Part shown: piece by piece, positions 30,689 through 36,411 of the stretch
How the letters are laid out: each line of letters begins with the position of its first letter
How positions within the stretch are numbered: the first letter of the stretch is position 1
NCBI RefSeq assembly: GCF_012277275.1
Contig: NZ_CP051155.1
Span: 1,426,001 to 1,490,000 of the forward strand
Source: Gephyromycinifex aptenodytis
GTDB taxonomy: Bacteria > Actinomycetota > Actinomycetes > Actinomycetales > Dermatophilaceae
DNA length: 64,000 nt
Reading direction: 5' to 3'
Translations under genes and position numbers: made by a program
Notes under the pieces: generated by a model
Database searches by the model: none
Told to the model about the DNA's origin: nothing
Seen by the model: only the letters and a program-made list of their open reading frames with translations

Positions 30689-30761
30689 GCCCTCGTAGCT
30701 CAGGGGATAGAGCACCGCTCTCCTAAAGCGGGTGTCGCAGGTTCGAATCCTGCCGGGGGCA
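30689..30761 (+). tRNA. tRNA-Arg (anticodon CCT)
   Basis: Cloverleaf: acceptor GCCCTCG/CGGGGGC with one G-U pair, D-arm TAGCTCAGGGGATAGAGCA, anticodon stem CCGCT/AGCGG with loop CTCCTAA (anticodon CCU, reading AGG), T-arm GCAGGTTCGAATCCTGC, discriminator A. CCA is not encoded: the DNA continues CTAG. Confidence 0.95.
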
Positions 30762-30912
30762 CTAGCCGTCATCGAGACCCAGGATGCCCCCTGCGATCAG
30801 GTCGGATGTGTGTGTGACCGTCCTGGCACGCCCGGCGGCGGGTCTGCAGGCGGTGGCGGTACGCACGAGACCGCTGGGCCTGAGAGACCGCGCCTCAACC
30901 AGTTGTTCGTCC

Positions 30913-31395
30913 CTATCGAACGTGCCGCACACCGGCAGGGGCCACCGCGAGCCCCGCGAGAATCACCCACACCGGCAGGCCGGTCCAGACGCCCCACATG
31001 ATCACACCGACGATGCCCTCGACGGCGACCGCCGCGACCTGACCGGCGACGATGGAAGCCAGCGTGGTCACCACCCCGGCCACCAGGCCACAGAACAGAA
31101 GCGTCAGCGCTAGCAGGCCAGCAAACGCCCAACGACTTTCGCGCCACCACGCCCCCGAGCTTGGCGCTGACCAAGCCAACACGCCGATTACCGGCCACGA
31201 GACCACCGGCGATGCCCACCAACTTGCCACCAGCACACTCCACAGGTGCGCAGCATGGGTGGCATCACCCAGCGGGAACCCCACATACGCGACGGCCACA
31301 GACAACGCCCACGCCAGCGCCAGACCAGCGAGCGCGCGCCAACTACGGGTGCTGTCGCCCGAATGTGTCCCGCTGCGCACTGAGGCCCACTGCAT
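30913..31395 (-). CDS. Hypothetical four-helix membrane protein
   Basis: 160 residues from the ATG at 31395. After a hydrophilic 20-residue start there are four hydrophobic helices (around ALAGLALAWALSVAVAYVGF, ASWWASPVVSWPVIGVLAW, FAGLLALTLLFCGLVAGVV and VEGIVGVIMWGVWTGLPVWV) and a short basic tail. I do not recognise a family. It is flanked by tRNA-Arg and the truncated CCA-enzyme fragment, with no operon partner. Confidence 0.6.
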   Translation of the reverse strand: MQWASVRSGTHSGDSTRSWRALAGLALAWALSVAVAYVGFPLGDATHAAHLWSVLVASWWASPVVSWPVIGVLAWSAPSSGAWWRESRWAFAGLLALTLLFCGLVAGVVTTLASIVAGQVAAVAVEGIVGVIMWGVWTGLPVWVILAGLAVAPAGVRHVR

Positions 31396-31544
31396 CCCTA
31401 TCGCTCCCCTGCACACAATCGATCCTGCTGTGGGCGCCTCATGCTTCTCGTGCCATTAGTGAGTCGCCTTCCCATGGATAGTGGCACCACTTGCGACGTG
31501 TCCGCACGAGTTGCTGCGAGGCTCGAACTGGTGGAGCCCTGACG

Positions 31545-31737
31545 ATGAGCGGTACGCCTACAGGCACCTGGTGCCCCGAACCCCTCCTTGCTGAGGCTGG
31601 CGCCCAGCTCGCCCCGTCCCTGCCGTTGTTGCTCGAGCTCGGCGCCAGATTCACCGACGCAGGCCACGAGGTAGCGCTGGTCGGTGGGCCGGTGCGGGAT
31701 GCCTTCCTCAGCCGGGCCAGCACCCCGCGCGCTTCAC
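31545..31737 (+). pseudogene. Truncated 5' end of a CCA-adding tRNA nucleotidyltransferase gene
   Basis: From the ATG at 31545 the frame reads about 60 residues, including LLLELGARFTDAGHEVALVGGPVRDAFLSRAS. That is the start of the head domain of the CCA-adding enzyme (VGGxVRDxLLGR motif). The expected continuation, with the catalytic DLDF-type Asp pair, is missing. The frame instead runs into a terminator hairpin and then antisense to the metallothionein gene. The break is at about 31725. No remainder is visible up to 32526. An intact copy must exist elsewhere, since tRNA-Arg at 30689 lacks an encoded CCA. Confidence 0.7.
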
Positions 31738-31766
31738 AGCCAGGTAATGGCACCCCCCCACCACAA

Positions 31767-31803
31767 ACGGCCCGGCCCCCGATCAACTCGGGGGCCGGGC
31801 CGT
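31767..31803 (-). terminator. Terminator of the arsR-metallothionein operon
   Basis: A 16-bp perfect stem (31767-31782 with 31788-31803) with a 5-base loop, followed on the minus strand by TTTGTGG. It is 26 bases past the metallothionein stop. Confidence 0.9.
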
Positions 31804-31829
31804 CCGCGGCAAGCGCAGGGCTAACGCAC

Positions 31830-32066
31830 TCAGGCAGTGTGCGAGCAGTTGGCGCAGGTGCAGTCCTCACACGTGCAGTTCGAGCACGTGCACTCGGTGC
31901 CGCACTTCGTGCAGGCGCAGACGTCGCACTCGTCGTAATGGCCGTCGTGCTCGCGGTGGGCGTGGCCGTCGTGGAGGTAGTCCACGTGGTCACCGTGCTG
32001 AATAGTGTCGTGGCCGCAATCGGCGCCGTGCTGGTGGGTGTGCTCTTCGTGCTGGGTGTGCGTCAT
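31830..32066 (-). CDS. Fused His-rich/Cys-rich metallothionein-like protein
   Basis: 78 residues with 14 His and 12 Cys. The first half is His-rich with acidic spacing (HTHQHGADCGHD, HGDHVDYLHDGHAHREHDGHYD). The last 28 residues hold 11 Cys as CDVCACTKCGTECTCSNC and CEDCTCANC, a metallothionein-type cluster pattern. The ATG at 32066 overlaps the ArsR stop (ATGA), so the two are co-translated. A cytoplasmic metal buffer, most likely for zinc, is inferred from composition and from the regulator. The first part resembles short His-rich proteins often named zinc transporter permease although they have no membrane helix; the Cys tail is unusual. Confidence 0.85.
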   Translation of the reverse strand: MTHTQHEEHTHQHGADCGHDTIQHGDHVDYLHDGHAHREHDGHYDECDVCACTKCGTECTCSNCTCEDCTCANCSHTA

Positions 32067-32407
32067 GACGCATCCTTTCCTGGGGCATGGGTCTGTGCTG
32101 GGGTGGCCGGATCGTGCTCGCGGGCGTGCGCGACAGCGTCCGCCACCATGTGGGTCACGTGGTCATCCATGAGGCGATACGACATCTCACGGCCGTGACG
32201 ATCCGCCTGCACGAGACAGCTCTGCCGAAGCACCTTCAAGTGCTGCGAGACGAGTGGCTGCGACGCCCCGAAGACATCCGCCAACTCGCCGACCGTGTGC
32301 GGGCGCTCATCGAGCCGCAGAAGAATCCCGACCCGCAACGGCGAGGACAGCACCTTGAACAGGTTGGCCGCCGCCATGCAGCTAGGTTGAGATTTCCACG
32401 TACTCAT
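32063..32407 (-). CDS. ArsR/SmtB-family metal-sensing repressor
   Basis: 114 residues. The winged helix reads ANLFKVLSSPLRVGILLRL, ADVFGASQPLVSQHLKVLRQ (recognition helix) and DRHGREMSYRL. The last helix holds Asp81, His83, His94 and Glu97 with the spacing D-x-H-x10-H-x2-E, the alpha-5 zinc site of SmtB (Asp104, His106, His117, Glu120). There is no CxC alpha-3 motif, so zinc (or cobalt/nickel) is the likely signal rather than arsenic, lead or cadmium. The start ATG at 32407 lies within a direct repeat that is a probable operator, so it should repress itself and the metallothionein. Confidence 0.92.
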   Translation of the reverse strand: MSTWKSQPSCMAAANLFKVLSSPLRVGILLRLDERPHTVGELADVFGASQPLVSQHLKVLRQSCLVQADRHGREMSYRLMDDHVTHMVADAVAHAREHDPATPAQTHAPGKDAS

Positions 32408-32446
32408 GCGTCCAACCTAATATAAGCCCCCACGCATGCGTCAACC
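32405..32446 (-). promoter_or_regulatory. Promoter/operator of the arsR-metallothionein operon
   Basis: On the minus strand GGTTGACGCATG (32446-32435) recurs as GGTTGGACGCATG (32417-32405), the second copy reaching into the start codon. Between them is the AT-rich TATATT (32424-32419), a -10 candidate. TTGACG (32444-32439) in the first copy could be the -35, though the 14-base spacing is short. The -10 is 11 bases before ATG, so the transcript would have almost no leader. Confidence 0.55.
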
Positions 32447-32526
32447 CTGCGTTCACGGAAGAGGACGCTGTCACCCAGAACAGGACCGACCGCCAGCCGC
32501 TAGCCCGCAGCCGAGACCCACCGCCC

Positions 32527-35163
32527 TCAGAGCCGGATAACGTGCGCGTCCGGGATGGCGGCGTAGCGCCCAGGGGTACAGGTCAGCAGCAAGACCTGAG
32601 CGTCATCGCCCACCAGCGAGAAGGCCGAACACACCCGACGCAACTTGTCGGGGTCGGAATAGCCCAGGGCATCGTCGATGATGACCGGCGCGCCCTGCTC
32701 AGAGTCGACGAGCGAGGCACACGCCAACCGGGTGAGGATCGCCAACTGCTCCTTGGCCCCCGTCGACAGGGCCGCATAGTCGATCCGCTGCCCATCAAGC
32801 ACCCGCGCCTGGATGCACAGGCTCCGGTCGACCTCTACATCGAAGTCTTCGCCGTAGACCACCCGACCCAGCCGGGTGACGGCTTGACCGAACGGCTCGA
32901 CATAGGCCCGTGTGGCCTCGCTGCGATGCCGCGTCATCGTCTCGTGCAGCAAGGCCGCCGCCCGAGCCCGGCGATCGATCGAATCGAATTCGCGTTGCGC
33001 GTGCACCAACTCTGAGCGCGCCCGATCCAGCTGCTCGGCCCGCCCCTGACCACCCGCGAAGGAAAGCCGCGCCTGCACGGCGAGCAACTCCCCGCGGGAC
33101 CTCTCCTGGCGTTCGCCTATCGCCTGCACCGCTGCCTGCGCGCCCGCGACGTGCACCCGCAACAGCTCCGGGTCGCGCCCACCTACCAGCGCCTCCACCT
33201 CACGCCATGCGCGCTCAGCCTGCTCCGCGGCCTCCGTCGCGCTCTGCAGCGCCGTCTCCAGCGCCTCATCGGCGGCCTTCTCTCGGGCCTGACGCAGCTC
33301 GGCCTCGGCGTTCTCGGCGTCCACCCGCGTTGAGTCACGCCGCGTCTCAGCACGTGCCAGCCGGATGAGGCCCGTCTGCACCGCGTCGCGCACCGCCCGC
33401 ACCTGGGCCTCCAGCACTTCCAGCCGCGCCCGACTTGCTTCTTCCTGCGTCCGCGCCTGCGAAAGAGCGCCCTTCTGCTGTTCGACGTCCGTGCGCAAAC
33501 CCTCATCCTGGCGCTCGGCAAGCCGCTCCTCGATGTGGGCCTGCAGCGCCTCGCGCCGCTCTCGACGCTCCTCAATGCCGCTACCTGCGCCGATCGCAGC
33601 GACGTCGTTCTCGGCCGCGCGCAACGCAGCAGCGGCCTCCCGGTGTTTGTGATGCAGCCGCTGGGCCTCCTGCACATCCGCAGCCCCGGCCGAAGCCAGA
33701 GCAGCATCCAGTTCCGCTCGGGCGGCAGCGACGGCGTCGGCTCGGGCACCGGCACCTGCCTCTGGTTCGATCCGCACCGACAGCAGGTCTGCCAGCACGA
33801 GATCGATCGGCTCCTCCAGGCTGCGTTCCAGCGATTCCCCCTGCACCAACGTCGCCGCTTCACCGGAGACGGTGACCTGCTGCCCGTCGGCAAGCGCGGT
33901 GATGTGCATGCGGGCACTGGCGGCACGCTGCTCGGCCAGAGCAAGCTGCCAGGCCTGGTGGGTGCGGGTCACCGCTTCCAGCGTGGCCTCATCGACGCGA
34001 TATTTCTCGAACTGGCGGCGGGCCTGGGCCCGCCCTTCGAGCGCGCTCTCCAACCGCTCGATGTCGGCCACCAGCTCCGCCAGGTCGGCGATGTCACCCA
34101 CCAACGCCATATCGGCCTCGGCCTGAGCCGCCTGATGCCGCAACGATGCCACCGCCGCGGCCTCGGCGTCGCGGCGTTCGGTGAGCTCGCCAAGGTGCTC
34201 CTGGTGCGGACCCAGCTCGGCAGCGAGACCGGCAGCCTCTGTCTGCGCAGCAGCAGCCGCAGACGCCCGCGCAGCAACCTTCTCCACCAGAGCTTGACGG
34301 GCCTCCAAACGTTCCCGATGCAGATTGGCTTCGGAGGTGGCGGCGCTACGGGCCCGGCTGGCCTGCTCCCGCTGATCCAGCAGTTCCGAGAGTTGACCCC
34401 ACTCCTGCTCGAGCCGGACCAGATCTTCGCGAGCACGCTCCAGTTCCACAGTCGTGTTGTGCGATTCCTCGCACAGGAGGGCGTGCCGCTGAACGTCGGC
34501 CTCGACCTCATCGACCGCGCTCTGGGCCTCGCAGACACCCTGTTCGGCGCGCTCAACCCGCTCGCTCAGCGCGCGGTATTCGCCGGTGGGTTTACCCGTG
34601 GCGGTGAAGTACCGGCGGTATTCGGCCTCGACCGAGGCCAACAGGGTGTCTGCCTCGGCTCCGGCTGTCGGTTGCGCCAGCCCGGCGGCTTCGTCCAGAG
34701 CCGCGGCCAACGCCGAACTCGACGCGAGGTCGCATTGATTCAGCGGCGTCGCCTGCATGAGACGCAACGCGCGCCACAGGTCCAAATCCGTCGTCGTTGC
34801 GAGGATCTCCTGTACCCGCTCATGCGCGGCCACCCCGGTGAGGTGTTCGCGGCGCGGCGCCGTGATCGTCAGCGTCGTCGCTGGCTGCTTGAACCACTGC
34901 TTGCGGTAGACGAAGCGGTACGGTCCACTGCTCATCTCAGCCTCGACGCAACTGGCGACGTCCTGACCGACCGGCCGGGCGGCCAGCACGTGGCGCTTAC
35001 GACTGGAGTCCTTCTCGTCGATAAGCAGATCGAGCGCCTCCAGCATCGAGGTCTTGCCGACCTCGTTGCGACCTTCGAGGACGACCACACCCCGCTCTGG
35101 CAGCTCGATGCAGCGATCCGTAACGCCCTTGACGTTATGGAGTTGGAGCCGGTGCAGCTTCAT
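32527..35163 (-). CDS. Rad50/SbcC-like (YhaN-type) SMC ATPase
   Basis: 878 residues. N-terminal ATPase half with Walker A GRNEVGKTS at residues 31-39. Two long Ala/Glu/Arg-rich coiled coils flank a beta-rich middle at about residues 420-475 (ITALADGQQVTVSGEAATLV) with no CxxC zinc hook. The C-terminal half has signature LSTGAKEQLAI, Walker B APVIIDDALG and D-loop region YSDPDKL. It pairs with the phosphoesterase directly upstream (ATGA overlap), as Rad50 pairs with Mre11 or YhaN with YhaO, so a DNA-end processing complex is expected. The hook-free middle resembles YhaN more than SbcC. Confidence 0.9.
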   Translation of the reverse strand: MKLHRLQLHNVKGVTDRCIELPERGVVVLEGRNEVGKTSMLEALDLLIDEKDSSRKRHVLAARPVGQDVASCVEAEMSSGPYRFVYRKQWFKQPATTLTITAPRREHLTGVAAHERVQEILATTTDLDLWRALRLMQATPLNQCDLASSSALAAALDEAAGLAQPTAGAEADTLLASVEAEYRRYFTATGKPTGEYRALSERVERAEQGVCEAQSAVDEVEADVQRHALLCEESHNTTVELERAREDLVRLEQEWGQLSELLDQREQASRARSAATSEANLHRERLEARQALVEKVAARASAAAAAQTEAAGLAAELGPHQEHLGELTERRDAEAAAVASLRHQAAQAEADMALVGDIADLAELVADIERLESALEGRAQARRQFEKYRVDEATLEAVTRTHQAWQLALAEQRAASARMHITALADGQQVTVSGEAATLVQGESLERSLEEPIDLVLADLLSVRIEPEAGAGARADAVAAARAELDAALASAGAADVQEAQRLHHKHREAAAALRAAENDVAAIGAGSGIEERRERREALQAHIEERLAERQDEGLRTDVEQQKGALSQARTQEEASRARLEVLEAQVRAVRDAVQTGLIRLARAETRRDSTRVDAENAEAELRQAREKAADEALETALQSATEAAEQAERAWREVEALVGGRDPELLRVHVAGAQAAVQAIGERQERSRGELLAVQARLSFAGGQGRAEQLDRARSELVHAQREFDSIDRRARAAALLHETMTRHRSEATRAYVEPFGQAVTRLGRVVYGEDFDVEVDRSLCIQARVLDGQRIDYAALSTGAKEQLAILTRLACASLVDSEQGAPVIIDDALGYSDPDKLRRVCSAFSLVGDDAQVLLLTCTPGRYAAIPDAHVIRL

Positions 35164-36302
35164 CGCACTCCACCCCCCGCGAGCCGGTAGAGCAACGACA
35201 GCGCATCCCGCGCGCAGACTGCCTGCTCGCCACTGCCCGCCGCCAGCTCAGCCAACTCCTGTGCGGCCTGGGAAGCGAAACCACCGACACCAAGGTCGCC
35301 GAGCTCGGCCTCGTCGATGATGACCGCGAGGTCCTCGTGCCGGTCCCAGGTGAACCGGCCGGCGAACAGGTCGTCGGCCTCGGCCAGGATCTGCTCCAGG
35401 CGCGCCTTGTCGGCCAACCGCAAGGTGCCGGTCAGCGCGGTGCGCACCACGGTGCGATCGGCCGGGCGCAACCCCGCCAGCTCGTGCTGCAGCGCTTCGA
35501 GGTCGGCGGAGGTGTCCACATGCCGTCGCAGGTCGACGAAGGACCAGGTGCCCACCTGCTCGCTCTGCACCGTGTGCCCACCGGCCGAATCCATCTCGAC
35601 TATGAGCACCTCCCCCGGAGCGTCCTCGACGAAACTCGTCACCTCCGGAGAGCCCGAATACCAGACCCGGCCGCTGACACCCACAGACAGCCGCGAGTGC
35701 CGGTCGCCGAGGGCAACGTGGTGGATGATGCGCTTGCCCAGGGCCTGCTCCATCGCCTCCAGGTGCAACATCGAGACATCGTTGGGATCGGGACTGAGCA
35801 CATCGACGATGCCGTGGGCCAGCAGCAACCGCACAGTGCCGTCGGCCTCACAGCCTGACAGGGCACGGGCCGCCAGGTCACCCAGCACATTCTTGGTCGC
35901 CCACGGGGCAGCGAGGATCTCCACGCCCGCGCTGACCACATACGGCCCGGGCTGACGCAGCACGACCACGTTTTCAGGGCAGCACGCCGTGAAGGTATCC
36001 GTGTCGTACACGCTGGCAGCATCCAGCGGATCGTGGTTTCCGGGCAGCAGATAGACCGGGCAGGGCATCTCGGCCAACGCCTGCATGGCGCGGCGAATGG
36101 TTTGGGAGGCGATCAGGTTGCTCTCGAAGACGTCGCCGGCAACCACCACGAAATCGCAGGCATGTTTCCCGGCGAGGCCAGCCATGGCATGGATCGCATC
36201 GATCCGCGCCGCCGTGTAGCGAGCCTGTGCCTCCGGGCGGAGGAAATGCCGCGTCATGCCCAACTGCCAGTCGCTGGTCTGCAGGAACCGAACAGACGCC
36301 AT
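35160..36302 (-). CDS. Mre11/SbcD-like (YhaO-type) DNA metallophosphoesterase
   Basis: 380 residues from the ATG at 36302, preceded by AGGAGGTGG. Metal-site motifs in order: FLQTSDWQLG (Asp, with Gln where SbcD has the D-x-H histidine), VVAGDVFESN, LLPGNHDPLD, LLAHGIVD and ALGDRHSRL (where the usual end is GHxH). The middle and C-terminal part form the capping domain. It acts with the Rad50-like ATPase encoded 3' of it, with overlapping start and stop. The Gln and GDRH changes may be family features of this actinobacterial branch; nuclease activity is expected but not certain. Confidence 0.9.
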   Translation of the reverse strand: MASVRFLQTSDWQLGMTRHFLRPEAQARYTAARIDAIHAMAGLAGKHACDFVVVAGDVFESNLIASQTIRRAMQALAEMPCPVYLLPGNHDPLDAASVYDTDTFTACCPENVVVLRQPGPYVVSAGVEILAAPWATKNVLGDLAARALSGCEADGTVRLLLAHGIVDVLSPDPNDVSMLHLEAMEQALGKRIIHHVALGDRHSRLSVGVSGRVWYSGSPEVTSFVEDAPGEVLIVEMDSAGGHTVQSEQVGTWSFVDLRRHVDTSADLEALQHELAGLRPADRTVVRTALTGTLRLADKARLEQILAEADDLFAGRFTWDRHEDLAVIIDEAELGDLGVGGFASQAAQELAELAAGSGEQAVCARDALSLLYRLAGGGVR

Positions 36303-36372
36303 CTCCACCTCCTGGGCCGGGTTGTTTCGTTGTGGTGACCGTATCCGGCGCCACCGACAACCCGGTTCACGC

Positions 36373-36411
36373 AGCATGGCCCGGCGCGCCAATGACGCAC
36401 CGGGCCATGCT
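36373..36411 (-). terminator. Hairpin after the NlpC/P60 gene
   Basis: A 12-bp perfect stem, 36373-36384 with 36400-36411, loop of 15 bases, 37 bases past the NlpC/P60 stop. No U tract. Confidence 0.7.

Follow-up and report, generated by a model that had tools for sequence, protein, structure and literature searches.

In Synechococcus, smtB and smtA are separate, divergent genes, an alpha-5 SmtB-type repressor controls a small Cys-rich protein, and the latter, SmtA, contains nine Cys and two His residues and holds four zinc ions. Among Actinobacteria, mycobacterial SmtB shares an operon with zur and counts the exporter zitA among its targets, according to a study in which the binding site of the Mycobacterium smegmatis protein is left to future work (PMC7174638). 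The known actinobacterial metallothionein MymT of M. tuberculosis is presented as a small Cys-rich copper protein with a motif of its own (PMC10612145). Only a handful of bacteria are listed as sources of metallothioneins in a recent review (PMC12193353).

Here we describe a two-gene unit on the minus strand of the genome of Gephyromycinifex aptenodytis, in which the gene of an ArsR/SmtB repressor is followed by the gene of a small His/Cys protein (Table 1; the window is the whole 64-kb stretch of DNA that was analysed). In its gene content the whole unit looks like a counterpart of smtB/smtA that works in the same way, with an SmtB-type repressor and a metallothionein-like protein, and the predicted fold of the repressor is similar. 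However, several features set it apart from the cyanobacterial system: the genes form a single overlapping operon, the small protein carries a His module as a fusion, the operator is different, and no Pfam metallothionein model matches. To the mycobacterial SmtB, the closest solved relative of the repressor, it is related by the same four ligands, whereas the partner of the repressor is here the fusion protein rather than zur. The resemblance to MymT, which we could compare by its description only, is limited to that of small Cys-rich actinobacterial proteins. As read from the sequence, the stop codon of the repressor gene and the start codon of the fusion gene share the bases ATGA; both open reading frames lie where the preliminary description had placed them, and the overlap it had reported is real. 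A chance composition of the pair was considered and ruled out, because the two genes recur together in other genera with conserved ligands and Cys spacing.

Table 1. Features of the operon and its flanks, in positions of the window.
Feature	Position	Strand	Remarks
Putative -35 element TTGACG	32439..32444	-	by eye, in comparison with other upstream regions
Probable operator CATGCGT-N20-ACGCATG (CATG-N26-CATG)	32405..32438	-	conserved site; right arm holds the ATG of the repressor gene
Putative -10 element TATTAG	32417..32422	-	by eye, in comparison with L020; spacer of 16 nt; 9 nt before the ATG
ArsR/SmtB-type repressor	32063..32407	-	114 aa; alpha-5 ligands D81, H83, H94, E97
His/Cys fusion protein (metallothionein-like)	31830..32066	-	78 aa; gene shares 4 bases with that of the repressor
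His module, residues 1-46	31929..32066	-	13 His, 1 Cys; counted on the sequence
Cys module, residues 47-78	31833..31928	-	11 Cys, 1 His; counted on the sequence
Perfect 16-bp hairpin, 5-nt loop	31767..31803	-	possible terminator without a T-tract

The repressor belongs, on the strength of its profile scores, to the ArsR/SmtB family, with 46.7 bits against a cut-off of 22 for Pfam HTH_5 and 82.1 against a cut-off of 55 for NCBIfam HTH_metalloreg. The genome contains five other ArsR-like places, but these are only 30-38% identical to it, and therefore it has no close duplicate. Its closest solved relative by sequence is SmtB of M. smegmatis (8qkf), on which the predicted model (pLDDT 92.3) superposes with 1.1 A over 92 columns at 46% identity (TM 0.77/0.89); the fold of the model is thus of the SmtB/CzrA type, and by structure SmtB and CzrA rank first, with cyanobacterial SmtB also close. 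The complete alpha-5 zinc site proposed in the preliminary description stands: residues 81, 83, 94 and 97 are Asp, His, His and Glu, they form the zinc-type pattern D-x-H ... H-x2-E, they align with identical residues in 8qkf, and they are invariant in all 28 ArsR proteins encoded directly upstream of His-module genes (21 upstream of His+Cys fusions and seven upstream of His-His tandems). The ligands of this site are all oxygen or nitrogen, and in the alignment a thiolate site is absent from the alpha-3 positions where it would usually lie. Among solved relatives, NmtR (2lkp) ranks second by sequence, and His-rich tails would suit nickel, so that an NmtR-type unit for nickel or cobalt could be envisaged. 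We regard it as extremely improbable, given that all 28 homologues have Glu at position 97, as opposed to His in NmtR, and given the structural ranking.

The small protein contains 14 His and 12 Cys residues. These counts are exactly those of the preliminary description, whereas the division into separate halves that accompanied them is nearly exact only, with Cys17 among residues 1-46 and His76 among residues 47-78 as the exceptions. The Cys residues follow CxC/CxxC spacing, and their columns are invariant or nearly so in an alignment of 27 rows (the window protein and 26 of the 43 fusions described below). In being small, Cys-rich and spaced in this manner, the fusion agrees with the broad definition of a metallothionein-like protein. 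Searches of Pfam returned no family for it or for any of the 27 aligned fusions at E<=10 (with the HMMER filters applied), including the SmtA/BmtA-type metallothionein model, which did not match the fusion; NCBIfam likewise gave no match for the window protein and six relatives (four fusions and two tandems). We therefore classify the protein, on its sequence, as metallothionein-like and outside any modelled metallothionein family. When its structure was predicted alone, confidence was low (a mean pLDDT of 56) and the His half formed four short strands; a search of the PDB with the fusion profile yielded three weak matches (best E 0.3), which were disregarded. The Cys half, with 11 Cys and His76, is sized like the cluster domain of SmtA, and because of this match in size three to four zinc ions would be a fair guess for its capacity. 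For SmtA itself, the review cited above gives eight Cys, two His and three zinc ions (PMC12193353).

Eleven Cys residues in CxC/CxxC spacing could also be expected of a protein for the detoxification of soft toxic metals such as cadmium, copper or mercury, in which the Cys half would be under selection and zinc would be incidental, and the description of MymT as a copper protein (PMC10612145) points the same way. On the other hand, the alpha-5 site of the sensor is of the zinc type, built of oxygen and nitrogen ligands, the usual alpha-3 positions carry no thiolate site, and the His half is common to ABC-3 permeases. We therefore consider detoxification of this kind unlikely.

The His half is a mobile module, found also as the tail of ABC-3 permeases and in His-His tandems. 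In the same genome, an ABC-3 permease ends in this module (58% identity over residues 2-46, E 1.5e-9), and its gene adjoins a Fur-family gene and an open reading frame that reads like an ABC ATPase. Long open reading frames that end in one His module form one group among the relatives of the fusion, and all ten of the 18 that were given to Pfam are ABC-3 permeases; a Citricoccus protein annotated as "zinc transporter permease" is 72.7% identical to residues 14-46 of the fusion. The small proteins with this annotation and the ABC-3 tails share the His half and differ from the fusion in lacking the Cys module. In 15 long-frame loci (14 of the family and one of the order), eight to ten hydrophobic stretches precede the His module in every case. 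Among 58 genomes searched, 36 are of the same family (own genome counted), and 31 of these 36 contain a match to the small protein; in 30 the match lies in an open frame of at least 335 codons, as expected for a permease tail, and three (G000, G002 and G019) carry the fusion.

The same data bear on the idea that the fusion is a store or chaperone for times of scarcity, which keeps zinc and passes it on, with the importer tail and the store exchanging the metal through their common module. The His module on the permease of the same genome and the long-frame matches in 30 of the 36 family genomes speak for it. However, repressors of the ArsR type let go of DNA at high zinc, as established for SmtB (PMC7174638), and therefore the fusion gene should be on in zinc excess; moreover, with only three fusions against 30 tail-type matches in the family, the tail does not need the fusion. 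A scarcity store thus seems decidedly unlikely.

A scan of GTDB genomes for relatives of the fusion returned at least 590 stretches, of which the best 80 were retained, so that the shares given here describe the nearest relatives and not all of them. By a simple rule, these 80 comprise 43 His+Cys fusions, 18 His-His tandems, the 18 long open reading frames mentioned above, and one other. The search for further fusions of the two halves that the preliminary description had suggested is thereby answered, and the possibility that the fusion is peculiar to one genome is ruled out. In 41 of the 43 fusions there are 19-21 Cys residues, corresponding to two Cys modules, and one-module forms are the window protein, L004 (11 Cys), L019 (12 Cys) and, in a further set of loci, L104; by this comparison, the window fusion is the short variant in a family in which most members carry two Cys modules. 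Of 396 genomes drawn evenly across the phylum, 44 match at E<=1e-5, and in three of the 396 (G000, G267 and G095) the match extends well beyond the His half. At E<=1e-18, a threshold meant to pick fusions, 11 of 396 genomes score in the order and 14 of 394 in the class. The fusion is thus, as far as such matches tell, scattered across genomes and not universal. A search of the open-access literature by titles and the openings of abstracts found no description of this His/Cys fusion, nor did strings of its motif match there; for a search of open-access papers alone, this absence is weak. Wide prior description of the same fusion, which the preliminary description had counted against its own reading, was accordingly not encountered in the open-access literature.

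An ArsR gene lies directly upstream on the same strand in 21 of the 43 fusion loci, and in 11 of these 21 the genes overlap by exactly four bases starting from an ATG. The 22 loci without such a gene comprise eight in which an ArsR gene of the same strand begins 1.1-1.6 kb downstream, four with a convergent ArsR that ends within about 0.7 kb, and ten with no ArsR in the DNA examined (L016, among them, is without upstream DNA). In one of the eight downstream cases (L023), the ArsR gene is about 1.2 kb from the fusion and is directly followed by an open reading frame that reads like Fur/Zur, by which reading the pair has the same layout as mycobacterial smtB-zur. In a group of loci without ArsR directly upstream (L029, L032, L033, L034, L040, L044, L045 and L047), inspection by eye reveals a shared GACAT-N-TG(C/T)GCATAT or close variants of it upstream of the fusion, which suggests control by an ArsR encoded elsewhere.

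Several individual loci deserve mention. On the Pantoea ananatis plasmid NZ_CP099537.1 (L137), an ArsR/SmtB gene is followed by a "hypothetical protein" 46% identical to residues 14-78 of the fusion, i.e. a similar pair is found on a conjugative plasmid of a gammaproteobacterium. In a metagenome-assembled genome of Leptospiraceae (L077), the ArsR gene overlaps a His-His tandem gene by four bases and is preceded by a perfect palindrome of 28 bp, identified by eye. The fusion and the upstream sequence of a locus recorded as Rhodococcus rhodnii (L027) are nearly identical to those of the Kibdelosporangium loci L023 and L037, and this record may be mislabelled or contaminated.

What is newly recognised here is the control region, with a probable operator CATG-N26-CATG whose right arm would supply the start codon of the repressor gene. 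By eye, a common plan can be followed upstream of the ArsR genes: TTGAC, CATGC, a TATATAA-like -10 element, and then GCATG. A consensus promoter scan of 31300-32900 listed nothing. With only 9 nt between the end of the putative -10 element and the ATG, a leaderless mRNA is probable. CATG-N26-CATG around the -10 element occurs in ten of 29 upstream regions (the window and 28 ArsR loci; the ten include the sister species L006 and L010), where 200 shuffles gave 0.11 on average and never more than 2, and is missing from the other 19; no other spacing of the strict form between 10 and 40 exceeds two of 29 regions. The looser CATR..YATG is present at spacing 26 in 13 of 29 regions, and also at spacings 12 (5/29) and 14 (4/29), in both cases more often than in shuffles (about 0.3). 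For the relaxed site, the ATG of the right arm is in the ArsR frame in all 15 loci other than the window. The arms covary, reading CATGCGGA/TCCGCATG in L007, CATGCACA/TGTGCATG in L003 and CATGCGT/ACGCATG in the window. A scan for inverted repeats with a free gap was not significant: p<=0.05 was reached by three fusion regions out of 22 (Fisher 0.108) and by none of seven tandem regions. In L019, which has no ArsR before the fusion, the N26 site stands ahead of the fusion gene itself. Within the window, at 32402-32448, the operator arms are contained in a direct repeat of 17 nt, the copies of which are 82% identical and 30 bases apart, about three helical turns.

The N26 spacing was noticed in the same data in which it was counted, which lends weight to the comparison across all spacings and to the loci added later. 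A second set comprised 26 loci, of which two were dropped (the fusion was missed by the pattern, though it is present in L084) and seven have no ArsR directly upstream by the rule applied. In the remaining 17 regions, the relaxed site was found in eight (shuffle mean 0.29, maximum 3), seven of them with the ATG in the ArsR frame, and the strict site in four (shuffle mean 0.065, maximum 2). Three loci of this set (L083, L085 and L103) were already known when the relaxed form was fixed; if they are left out, the 14 fresh regions (L143-L163) contain five relaxed sites, four in frame, and three strict ones, and nine of the 14 lack the relaxed site. The independence of the second set is partial, because it includes the same or sister species (L153 like L005, L158 like L013, and L152 like L017). 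We conclude that the operator-like site, a sequence pattern so far, repeats in fresh loci, more weakly than in the first set, and that sites of another layout exist among the ArsR upstream regions. The exact operator of the window occurs once in the 3.45-Mb genome, in agreement with the self-contained unit of the preliminary description. A wider regulon was sought with a looser pattern, and the six sites found in the genome, compared with eight for the reversed control, give no sign of one.

The operon is followed by a perfect hairpin. It is one of five perfect stems of at least 12 bp in the window, and the stretch of 88 nt that contains it folds better than its shuffles (z -7.2). However, it has no T-tract, and a consensus terminator scan of 31300-32900 listed nothing, and therefore termination at this place is plausible at most; from the dedicated terminator of the preliminary description, the hairpin is retained and the assignment is weakened. 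Beside the hairpin, on the plus strand (31545-31715), lies a 5'-terminal fragment of a gene, which we take to be that of a CCA tRNA nucleotidyltransferase. It is 91% identical over residues 12-57 to a place (G000:C1:2239838-2239975) within a frame of 556 codons and looks like a truncated duplicate. Together with the gene of tRNA-Arg (CCT), which lies some 1 kb away from the operon (30689-30762, plus strand), it may mark a rearranged stretch. Upstream of the operon, on the minus strand (32527-36392), two long open reading frames read like an ATPase and nuclease pair of the SbcC/SbcD type.

We propose that the operon is a self-regulating zinc buffer, in which zinc releases the repressor and the fusion binds the excess, and we hold this reading to be probable. 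Dimers of the apo-repressor would keep the operon silent by sitting on an operator that covers both promoter and start codon, until zinc, or its mimics cadmium and cobalt, fills the alpha-5 site and the repressor leaves the DNA. The mRNA made after release would probably be leaderless, and the ATGA overlap would couple the two proteins in translation, so that repressor made alongside the fusion could reset the switch as zinc falls. The Cys half would take up the excess as a thiolate cluster of several zinc ions, with the His half adding weaker nitrogen/oxygen sites. The two affinities and the passing of metal between the halves that the preliminary description had raised were not supported by the sequence; such passing, or passing between the permease tail and the fusion, may be possible. 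Repression, the identity of the metal, release, and the binding of metal and its order are what we infer from the features seen in the sequence, namely the layout of the genes, the ligand residues, the predicted fold, the conserved operator-like site and the wide recurrence. It is tempting to go further and to envisage a modular family of zinc metallothioneins: one or two thiolate modules would have been attached to the tail with which an ABC-3 importer receives zinc, the importer tail and the buffer could then exchange the metal via the His module, and the operator of the repressor would include its own start codon on a leaderless mRNA, one site covering both the promoter and the first codon; this extended scenario is tentative, and we consider it rather doubtful in its entirety.

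If the proposal of a zinc buffer is true, Actinobacteria would possess a scattered, recurrent and zinc-regulated metallothionein that has no Pfam entry, and this metallothionein would be tied to importer-type permeases by a common module. The control region described here would, in addition, provide a concrete candidate operator for an SmtB close to the mycobacterial one.
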